A stretch of 64,000 bases of DNA from Fibrobacter sp. UBA7003 (GTDB lineage Bacteria > Fibrobacterota > Fibrobacteria > Fibrobacterales > Fibrobacteraceae). Under the pieces are notes generated by a model. The model was not told the DNA's origin and did no database searches. It saw nothing but the letters and a program-made list of their open reading frames with translations. Positions 27,978-30,013 of the stretch are shown here, piece by piece. How positions within the stretch are numbered: position 1 is the first letter of the stretch; the number at the start of each line of letters is the position of its first letter. The translations under genes were made by a program, and so were the position numbers. The stretch is taken from assembly GCA_002449765.1 (NCBI GenBank), contig DJXN01000002.1:1-64000 (forward strand), read 5' to 3'.

Positions 27978-29549
27978 TTAGGCCTTCTTGTACAGGAGGT
28001 TCACGCCGCCGAAGAGGGCGCGCATGTTGGCCTTGAGCGTATCGCTACTGACGCCGCGGCCTTCGACCTCAACATCGCCCGCCTTCAGGAGCATGCGGCT
28101 AAGCCCGCGGCCAGCCCACAACTTGTCCTTTTCAGGTACCACAAGCTGGCGGTACTTCACGAGTTCCACCGGCATGCCGATTTCGCGCATGAGCATGAGG
28201 GCGGCCTCGATCGGGCCTTCTGCCGTAATGGACCTCACCAGCGGTTCGCCGTCCTTCTTGAAGTGAAAAATGAAGCGGTTCTCGTCGGGGATAACCTCGA
28301 TGTTGTTGAACACCAGGCGGCCGTTCACGTTCACGCGCTGCTCGCGGAACACGTCCAGCACGCGCTCGGCGCTGAGTTCGCCTTCCTTTTCGCTGTAGGA
28401 CTTCAGGATCGGCTGCAGTTCGGCGGCTTCGGCGAGCGTCATCTTGTAGCCGAACTTCGTGATAATCTCGTACACGGCGGTGCGGCCGCTCTGGCTCGTG
28501 AAGCTCAGGGCGTCGTTCTGGTGGCGGCCGATGATGGAGTAGTCGATCGGGCGGTAGGCGCCCTTCTTCATGTCCTTCGTCTTGGAGGCGCCATCCTGGT
28601 GGATGCCGCTACGGTGCACGATGGCTTCGGCGCCAATCAGCGGGGCGCGGCTGTAGATGTTGATGCCGGACCACTGGGAAATCAAGATGGCCGTCTCGTA
28701 GATGCGTTCCATGTGCAGGCCGGTCTGTACGCCGGAGTTGTGCAGCGCGACCGCAACTTCGTAAAAATTCGTGTTGCCGCAGCGTTCGCCCAAGCCGTTC
28801 AGCGCGACTTCCAGCTGGGTTGCCCCCACGAAGAAACTTTCGACGGTGGCGGCCGTCGCCATGCCAAGGTCATTATGGCAGTGCACCGAAATCGTGACGT
28901 CCTTCGGGAGCGCCTCGTACACCTGCTTAATCTGGTTCACATACAGGAACGGACGGTAGCGTTCCACCGTATTCGGCAGGTTGATGGTCGTCGCACCGGC
29001 TTCGACCACGGCCTTCAGCACGTCAATCACGAAATCCATGTTTTCGAGACAGTCACCGAAATGCTCGGCGCTGAATTCCACATCGCCCTTGCTACCTACG
29101 AGCGACTTTGCAAACTTCACGCAATGCACCGCCTTCTCCTTGACCTGTTCGGGGGTCAGGTGCAGCACGTACTCCATCGAGAGCGGGCTTGTGGCGAGGA
29201 AGGTATGAATACGCGGGTGCGGAGCGTACTGCACCGCTTCCCAGCAGCGCTGGATATCGCTTTCCACACAGCGGGCCAGGCCCGAAACCACGATGCGCTT
29301 TGCGACTTCGTCGCCTTCTTCAGCCATCTTGGCGGTCAGCTGGGCAAGTTCCTTGCACGATTCAAAGTCCATCTCGCTCGAAGCCGGGAAGCCGACTTCG
29401 GCACCCTGCACGCCGAGCTTCAAGAGCTGCAGGTATACGTCCTTCTTCTGGGCGTTGTTCCAGGGCTTCGGGAGCGCCTGGTTGCCGTCACGCAGGGTGA
29501 CATCGTAAAAGAAAGGTTGTCTTTCAATCGTGTTCTTATTTTCGCTCAT
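27978..29549 (-). CDS. leuA: 2-isopropylmalate synthase
   Basis: Condenses acetyl-CoA with 2-oxoisovalerate in the first committed step of leucine synthesis. The 523 residues show the catalytic HMGL-like barrel: DVTLRDGNQAL at the start, GAEVGFPASS, SAEHFGDC, INLPNTV and the metal motif SVHCHNDLG. A linker leads into a C-terminal LeuA dimer/regulatory-like domain after about residue 390. Citramalate synthase is the alternative, but the leucine-rich leader peptide upstream points to leucine control. AAGGAG precedes ATG 29549. It is monocistronic. Confidence 0.88.
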   Translation of the reverse strand: MSENKNTIERQPFFYDVTLRDGNQALPKPWNNAQKKDVYLQLLKLGVQGAEVGFPASSEMDFESCKELAQLTAKMAEEGDEVAKRIVVSGLARCVESDIQRCWEAVQYAPHPRIHTFLATSPLSMEYVLHLTPEQVKEKAVHCVKFAKSLVGSKGDVEFSAEHFGDCLENMDFVIDVLKAVVEAGATTINLPNTVERYRPFLYVNQIKQVYEALPKDVTISVHCHNDLGMATAATVESFFVGATQLEVALNGLGERCGNTNFYEVAVALHNSGVQTGLHMERIYETAILISQWSGINIYSRAPLIGAEAIVHRSGIHQDGASKTKDMKKGAYRPIDYSIIGRHQNDALSFTSQSGRTAVYEIITKFGYKMTLAEAAELQPILKSYSEKEGELSAERVLDVFREQRVNVNGRLVFNNIEVIPDENRFIFHFKKDGEPLVRSITAEGPIEAALMLMREIGMPVELVKYRQLVVPEKDKLWAGRGLSRMLLKAGDVEVEGRGVSSDTLKANMRALFGGVNLLYKKA

Positions 29550-29615
29550 TTTTCATCTCCTTGCCGACTTCCATGCGCCGCAAAGTTCCTTTTCCTGTTC
29601 AAAAATAGCATTTTG

Positions 29616-29650
29616 CCATAAAAAAGAACCCGCTTCGTCACGGAAGCGGG
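29616..29650 (-). terminator. Attenuator terminator before leuA
   Basis: Minus-strand stem CCCGCTTC / GAAGCGGG with a 6-base loop (CGTGAC), followed by TTCTTTTTT. It lies 36 bases after the leader peptide stop and 67 bases before leuA. Its 5' arm can instead pair with CACGGAGCGAGG (29692-29703) in the end of the leader ORF, giving an antiterminator. Confidence 0.85.
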
Positions 29651-29685
29651 CCCTTTAAGTTAATTCCTATTTAAAACGAAATAGC

Positions 29686-29745
29686 CTAAAACCTCGCTCC
29701 GTGCGCGATACCAAGTAGAAGTCGAAGGTTAAGGTTCTTTCTCAT
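29686..29745 (-). CDS. leuL: Leucine leader peptide
   Basis: ATG 29745 opens a 19-residue peptide, MRKNLNLRLLLGIAHGARF, with five Leu, three of them consecutive. It ends upstream of a terminator hairpin ahead of leuA, the classical layout of amino-acid attenuation. A ribosome stalled at the Leu codons would leave the His-Gly-Ala-Arg codons free to pair with the 5' arm of the terminator; a ribosome reaching the stop would cover them and let the terminator form. There is no Shine-Dalgarno sequence, and the promoter places the mRNA start at about the ATG. The peptide itself probably has no other function. Confidence 0.85.
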   Translation of the reverse strand: MRKNLNLRLLLGIAHGARF

Positions 29746-29752
29746 GCCATAG

Positions 29753-29781
29753 AATATACAAAGTTTTGGGCTACGTGGCAA
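29753..29781 (-). promoter_or_regulatory. leuL-leuA promoter
   Basis: Minus-strand TTGCCA (29776-29781), exactly 17 bp, TATATT (29753-29758). Seven bases separate the -10 box from the leader ATG, so the leader mRNA would be leaderless or nearly so. Confidence 0.8.
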
Positions 29782-29806
29782 GGGGTCGCTTCAAGACGCC
29801 CGCGAT

Positions 29807-30013
29807 CTAACGTTCCTCCCAGATGCCGTTCGGGAGCTTGCCGATATCGCGAAAGTCCAGTTCACCGCCGGAACGCGAAGATGAAACGTTCACGAGACGC
29901 GCAAGCGGCTTGCCCGCACGTTCAATCACGATTTCTTCTTGCGAGAGCGAGACCTGGTTCAGCAAGTTGCCGAAGTTTTGCCTCGCCTCCATGGCGGTGA
30001 CTGTCTTTGCCAT
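29807..30013 (-). CDS. Phd/YefM-type antitoxin without a neighbouring toxin
   Basis: The 68 residues begin with the Phd/YefM DNA-binding fold: TVTAMEARQNFGNLLNQV, then EEIVIERAGKPLARLV. The C-terminal toxin-binding tail is short (DFRDIGKLPNGIWEER). No Doc, YoeB or PIN toxin follows; the next element downstream is the leuA promoter. It starts 8 bases after the OmpA stop on the same strand, with AAGG upstream. It is either an orphan antitoxin or a repressor. Confidence 0.82.
   Translation of the reverse strand: MAKTVTAMEARQNFGNLLNQVSLSQEEIVIERAGKPLARLVNVSSSRSGGELDFRDIGKLPNGIWEER

Follow-up and report, generated by a model that had tools for sequence, protein, structure and literature searches.

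How does a Fibrobacter control its leuA gene, and could a short leucine-rich reading frame with no ribosome-binding site of its own serve as the sensor? The preliminary description of the window, that is, of the whole 64,000-nucleotide stretch analysed here, had proposed a leucine attenuator with a leaderless leader in front of leuA. This is still the best reading once relatives are considered: positions 29620-29781 very probably make up a ribosome-mediated leucine attenuator of leuA with a leaderless leader, a mechanism whose successive events (translation of the leader, stalling of the ribosome, termination and the response to leucine) we infer from the sequence.

The elements named in that earlier account can be recovered in the window (Table 1). 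The promoter-like TTGCCA-N17-TATATT, followed by an ATG 7 bases on, is present letter for letter, and the leader frame of 19 codons, MRKNLNLRLLLGIAHGARF, carries the five Leu codons that had been noticed, at residues 5, 7, 9, 10 and 11. The sequence of a terminator hairpin with a U run occupies 29654-29620, and the segment CACGGAGCGAGG at the end of the leader (29703-29692) is complementary, with one bulge, to CCCGCTTCCGTG of the 5' arm of that hairpin. Between the end of the U run (29620) and the first base of leuA (29549) lie 70 bases. An earlier start, the ATG at 29750, opens only ATG-GCA-TGA, and most nearly identical relatives have ATA at this place. In the window alone, neither the promoter nor the terminator is remarkable, since a neutral scan of 29400-30000 returned one promoter-like and one terminator-like site against shuffle means of 0.4 and 1.0, respectively. 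Upstream of these elements, an ORF for a PhdYefM-type antitoxin (29807-30013, minus strand; PF02604, 36.4 bits, cut-off 29.8) ends 25 bases before the leuL -35 box.

Table 1. Features of the putative leuL attenuator and its controlled gene (window coordinates), with the Trp leader loci of the same genome.
Feature	Coordinates	Strand	Basis or remark
-35 element TTGCCA	29776..29781	-	Promoter-like scan and letters
-10 element TATATT	29753..29758	-	17-base spacer from the -35 element
CTATGGC, 7-base spacer from -10 to ATG	29746..29752	-	Length kept, letters not
leuL leader ORF MRKNLNLRLLLGIAHGARF, predicted leaderless	29686..29745	-	ATG 29745-29743, stop TAG 29688-29686
Region 1, AACCTTCGACTTC within the Leu codons, predicted protector pairing with region 2	29718..29730	-	Folds
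Region 2, antiterminator segment CACGGAGCGAGG	29692..29703	-	At the end of the leader peptide; pairs with region 3
Region 3, 5' arm of the terminator, common to the antiterminator	29643..29654	-	Pairing analysis
Region 4, 3' arm of the terminator (29636-29625) and U run (29624-29620)	29620..29636	-	Pairing analysis
Terminator-like hairpin AGGGCCCGCTTC-CGTGAC-GAAGCGGGTTCT	29625..29654	-	U run follows at 29624-29620
Hairpin directly 5' of leuA, occupying part of its Shine-Dalgarno AAGGAG (29562-29557)	29559..29585	-	Single-sequence folds
leuA, 2-isopropylmalate synthase, LeuA2-type, controlled gene	27978..29549	-	NF042434, 540.8 bits, cut-off 500
Trp leader loci L146, L178, L179			Window genome, contigs C7 and C4

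A search for LeuA in 111 genomes of the same family succeeded in 102, and named contigs gave 68 loci. Our assignment of the window genome to Fibrobacter follows the labels of those named contigs whose LeuA is nearest (94-98%), by far most of them Fibrobacter or F. succinogenes MAGs. Upstream DNA was read for 69 of the 102 genomes (the 30 best plus 40 chosen ones, one of which lay off its contig end) and at 63 of the named 68, and the two collections have many sequences in common. A paralogue (L002) and five loci without upstream DNA (L063, L087, L095, L096 and L097) were excluded before leader calling, and upstream DNA was short at L120 (61 bases) and L210 (141 bases). A Leu-rich leader with a terminator was detected by script before leuA in 61 of the 69 genomes and in 60 of the 63 named loci, where the three loci without such a leader (L090, L091 and L093) are not labelled Fibrobacter. 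Outside the family, a leader and a hairpin were present at all 13 loci from 12 genomes of families f2, f3 and f4, whose LeuA is 51-63% identical to that of the window; the leaders of these class-level loci were chosen by eye from the listing, and a fourteenth locus with too little DNA was left out. The preliminary description had named related genomes devoid of a Leu-rich short ORF or hairpin before leuA as the finding that would count against it; most relatives carry both. The putative leuL attenuator is a conserved device, found in four families of the class, and not the oddity of one Fibrobacter.

The eight genomes missed by the script comprise six of genus g4, one of genus g2, and L110 of genus g9. 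Inspected by eye, L110 has a leaderless-looking MTKYFFLPGLF with only two Leu codons, together with a hairpin; upstream of leuA in the other seven there is no leader of any such kind. Loci of genera g4 and g2 (L114-L118, L121 and L122) show no leuA attenuator, and at L122 leuA itself starts 7 bases after TACATT and looks leaderless.

The family leader sequences, grouped at 90% identity, form 34 clusters, and the geometry of their starts is strikingly regular. Of 113 distinct family sequences, 107 have a hexamer of the form TA...T at a distance of 6-8 bases from the leader ATG. This count is somewhat inflated because the caller favoured such ATGs: it preferred those near a -10 box, and it switched to an earlier in-frame ATG wherever doing so brought the gap to 6-8. 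The remaining sequences are L003 (TATTAT, 10 bases), L113 (9 bases) and four loci with no hexamer (L068, L071, L136 and L137). By cluster, the gap between the -10 element and the ATG is 6 or 7 in 31 of 34. The base preceding the leader ATG is C or T in 32 of the 34 clusters and in 108 of the 113 sequences, as it is in 13 of 13 class-level loci, whose gaps are likewise 6 or 7. Bacterial RNA polymerase usually initiates at an A preceded by a pyrimidine, which makes the first base of the leader ATG the likely +1, and we infer from this layout that the 5' end of the RNA lies at or near the leader ATG.

In 23 clusters selected because their gap is 7 bases, mean pairwise identity rises from 0.25-0.26 in the DNA preceding the promoter to 0.53 over the -35 stretch (-41 to -25); it is 0.34 in the spacer, 0.97 at the -10 element, where three of the six bases are fixed by the choice of clusters (TA...T), and 0.68 over the first 30 coding bases. 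A Shine-Dalgarno-like 4-mer at positions -17 to -4 relative to the leader ATG is found in none of the 34 clusters, and no Shine-Dalgarno sequence precedes the leader at the 13 class-level loci; before leuA such a 4-mer is found in 34 of 34 clusters, by a more permissive test in which any open in-frame start was counted. The four loci without the hexamer keep the Leu leader and the hairpins with no -10 box before the ATG, and have a TAA about 30 bases upstream, possibly the end of an upstream frame; their leader may not be leaderless.

The composition of the leaders is that expected of a leucine sensor. Over the 34 clusters, Leu accounts for 18-38% of leader residues, with a mean of 28%; in 39 long ORFs of the window, taken to represent genes, its share is 8.3%. 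Among the 185 leader Leu codons, 37.8% are CTA, against 1.9% of 1440 in the long window ORFs; the chi-square on these Leu codons is overstated, the clusters being related. The preliminary description had counted a conserved Leu run with variable flanks as support, and this is the pattern observed: N-termini vary by genus and family, to the point of being unrelated across families, while the Leu run stays (MRKNLNLRLLL, MINQNILLGLLL, MSKAHAQLLLLGL and MTSANAKNTISLLLLGL). The distances along the leader are also suited to attenuation. Measured from the first base of the final Leu codon in the densest run, the start of the region-2 core is 16-33 bases downstream in all 34 clusters; relative to the first base of the stop codon, it falls anywhere from 24 bases upstream to 4 bases downstream. 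Taking the textbook size of a ribosome footprint, a ribosome stalled at the Leu run would leave the region-2 core uncovered, and one at the stop codon would cover it in most clusters.

Pairing was assessed on an alignment of the 34 clusters (A1), in which each cell counts a sequence and not an event; L090, L091, L114 and L122, having no leader, had been excluded beforehand. The antiterminator core, GGAGCG with CGCTTC (six pairs), is paired in 204 of 204 cells, against 40-58% in slid registers, and both its pairing percentage and its covariation score were reached by 0 of 500 shuffles. Its counts of varying pairs and of pair types are not above those of shuffles (413 and 500 of 500), and the 10 cells changed on both sides all fall at one of the six pairs. 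Across families the core changes jointly, from GGAGCG/CGCTCC to GGAGTG/CACTCC, and genus g15 holds both kinds of hairpin (L221 and L222 versus L214 and L220). The covariation that the preliminary description had proposed to check in relatives is supported by the unbroken pairing of the core and by its joint change between families, with the double changes restricted to a single pair. For the terminator, 87.7% of cells are paired (31-55% in slid registers), and 12 cells are changed on both sides, a number reached by 1 of 500 shuffles.

Folding points to a third pairing, absent from the earlier account, that the control-codon region could form with the antiterminator segment: all 34 clusters fold with 3 to 19 bases of region 2 paired to upstream bases. 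Examined in one fixed register, pairing of regions 1 and 2 holds in 77.3% of cells (42-63% in slid registers) and shows no covariation, and we keep this protector pairing as a prediction only; it would complete the classical scheme of 1:2, 2:3 and 3:4 pairings. Up to the terminator, the leader of the window folds no better than shuffles (z = 0.35), while the mean over the 34 clusters is -2.12, with z below -2 in 17 of them; with the terminator included, z is -3.04 for the window and -3.85 on average. At equilibrium, the leader with its hairpin is predicted to fold into the terminator form for 31 clusters; the other 3 of the 34, the window among them, give the antiterminator.

Put together, these elements suggest the following course of events. 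RNA polymerase would begin on the A of the leader ATG or no more than about two bases from it, and a ribosome would load on the 5'-terminal AUG upon its emergence, with no ribosome-binding site involved. Such leaderless initiation would oblige the ribosome to stay close behind RNA polymerase, as the preliminary description had anticipated. When charged tRNA-Leu is scarce, the ribosome would stall at the CTT and CTA codons and cover region 1, so that region 2 would be free to pair with region 3 and transcription would continue into leuA. When leucine is ample, a ribosome at the stop codon would cover region 2, the 3:4 terminator would form and transcription would stop. Should the leader not be translated, pairing with region 1 would keep region 2 occupied, which would once more allow the terminator to form.

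Several other explanations of these data can be weighed against the leaderless attenuator. The locus could be a leucine attenuator whose leader is read from the longer 5' leader of an upstream promoter and is not leaderless. Read-through is conceivable from the PhdYefM-type ORF, and in the clade of L068 no -10 box precedes the leader ATG, but we hold this variant to be unlikely: the conserved block starts at the -35 stretch, with identity further upstream at background level, the spacer keeps its length while its letters drift, and the leader is preceded by no SD-like word in any cluster. It is very unlikely that the terminated transcript acts mainly as a small RNA or gives rise to a trans-acting peptide, attenuation being secondary, as for rnTrpL/peTrpL in S. 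meliloti. Termination would indeed release an RNA of about 125 bases that begins with AUG and is built like rnTrpL as an excerpt of its description has it (PMC7298713); the letters of both peptide and RNA, however, drift strongly outside the Leu run and the pairing segments, unlike those of a conserved trans-acting product.

A shade less probable again is another kind of RNA switch, such as a T-box, a leucine riboswitch or a protein-bound leader of the type of the actinobacterial LEU element, beside which the short ORF would be incidental. The structure of the leader before the terminator, which exceeds that of shuffles in many clusters, would agree with a switch, but an untranslated switch leaves unexplained why the Leu run, with its rare codons, is retained from family to family, and in the trp genes Trp runs stand at the same place. 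No Rfam regulator matched over the attenuator stretch at its gathering score; a T-box or a known Rfam leader was accordingly rejected, with neither a T-box nor Leu_leader (RF00512, the enterobacterial leuABCD attenuator) among the nine weak matches at E up to 10. The weak matches below threshold include Thr_leader (20.8 bits, gathering 55) and Trp_leader (18.5 bits, gathering 41). Finally, an ordinary terminator beside a meaningless short ORF is scarcely credible. The scan does lead one to expect about one terminator-like site and now and then a promoter-like one in 600 bases of the window, but conservation in four families, maintained pairing and codon bias all speak against an artefact, and a chance ORF is ruled out because the elements are conserved across relatives.

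The leaderless attenuator of leuA does not stand alone in this genome. Promoter-plus-ATG patterns with gaps of 5-8 bases, searched genome-wide, occur 14, 94 and 24 times; when reversed, they occur 2, 33 and 4 times. This suggests that leaderless mRNAs are common in Fibrobacter, and with such an excess of leaderless-looking starts, leaderless initiation itself is probably ordinary here. Among 126 distinct pattern starts, 64 head frames that exceed 60 codons or reach the end of the fetched DNA, some of them inside other genes, and 43 head frames of 8-60 codons. Eight of these short frames have, within 140 bases, a hairpin of -8 kcal/mol or better and then a T-rich stretch, and four of the eight are leuL and three trp leaders. 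These lie before a TrpB-like gene (MKFVASINFWWWQAQ; NF009057, 169 bits on the first 135 codons, whole-model cut-off 366), before trpB (MKMNAVIRFNRWWWGSTK; TIGR00263, 543 bits, cut-off 392) and before a trpE-like gene cut by the end of the locus (MMNFVTCATLNRRWWRGL; TIGR00564, 401 bits, cut-off 518). Their -10-to-ATG gaps of 7, 7 and 6 bases, together with terminator-like hairpins, give them a layout like that of leuL. Among 30 trpB loci fetched, 27 had enough upstream DNA, and 24 of these carry a Trp leader; the three without one comprise a Fibrobacter locus and two more distant loci. No leader of the leuL layout was found within 1.5 kb upstream of ilvB or hisG. Other attenuators may exist, the patterns being such that they miss other promoter types.

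The enterobacterial leuABCD operon likewise has a run of Leu codons, alternative hairpins and control of leuA, but differs in the Shine-Dalgarno sequence of its leader. Leaderless counterparts are known from other bacteria. According to an excerpt of PMC11857589, citing Morbach 2000, the ilvBNC operon of C. glutamicum has a leader (IlvL) with branched-chain codons, a transcription start one nucleotide from the start codon, no ribosome-binding site, and a terminator and antiterminator; this system belongs to Actinobacteria, controls ilvBNC through Ile, Val and Leu codons, and uses other hairpins. In S. meliloti, an excerpt of PMC7298713 describes a trpLE(G) RNA (rnTrpL) that starts with the leader ATG and has a ribosome-dependent terminator and antiterminator; it differs in being alphaproteobacterial, in responding to Trp and in the trans roles reported there for RNA and peptide. 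The actinobacterial LEU element resembles the window in having an ORF with a Leu codon run upstream of leuA, but as presented in an excerpt of PMC1262725 it is a pseudoknot whose Leu codons pair with the leuA Shine-Dalgarno, where the window has a terminator and an antiterminator. Mycobacterial leaderless polycysteine sORFs are cysteine-responsive attenuators, to judge from a title cited in PMC13236596; the likeness is in the build, and the difference is cysteine.

The mechanism proposed is therefore of a known kind, leaderless attenuator leaders being known in C. glutamicum and S. meliloti. The Flavobacterium group is the nearest large group to Fibrobacter. It is not wholly without precedent, since leader-peptide attenuation has been inferred in Flavobacterium psychrophilum, as stated in a passage of PMC9723704. 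In an excerpt of a 2010 survey, leader-peptide systems are given as known from Proteobacteria and Actinobacteria, to which Firmicutes were then added (PMC2965389), and a portion of PMC10783764 merely lists the class of Fibrobacter among those with Shine-Dalgarno pairing. Our survey of the open-access literature, with subscription journals mostly outside it, returned nothing joining Fibrobacter, attenuation and leader peptide, nothing joining 'Fibrobacter succinogenes' with 'transcription start site', no title on such attenuators among papers on Fibrobacter and leaderless, and, judged by match ranking, none with all three of Fibrobacteres, leader peptide and attenuator. The apparent novelty lies in the lineage, in how deeply the layout is conserved and in the joint leu/trp set. 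The preliminary description had called the device unusual in Fibrobacter, which applies to the lineage but not to the device itself, given its presence in four families of the class, the three trp leaders built alike and the two precedents above.

If correct, this reading adds Fibrobacter and its class to the lineages with ribosome-mediated attenuation by way of leaderless leaders. The device would persist there down to 51% LeuA identity, and the leu and trp genes of one genome share its build. Such leaders also provide a natural setting in which to ask how a ribosome loaded on a bare 5' AUG keeps up with RNA polymerase. We also put forward, tentatively and as an unlikely extension, that amino-acid attenuation is leaderless by design throughout the class and that the discriminator of 6-7 bases doubles as a translation-initiation signal, so that a shift of the start site by 1-2 bases would set the loading of the first ribosome and thereby termination before the leu and trp genes. 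If this were true, start-site choice would feed into the switch as a second signal alongside leucine or tryptophan.

Two minor observations concern leuA itself. Many LeuA matches contain a TAG; in 4 of 5 named loci examined, this stop stands directly after LLYK and the C-terminus is short, which suggests that the search aligned past an ordinary stop. In the hairpin adjacent to leuA, CUUUGCGGC pairs with GUCGGCAAGG, and this structure may add translational control. In single-sequence folds with no shuffle control, at least one base of the leuA Shine-Dalgarno is paired in 31 of 33 clusters.
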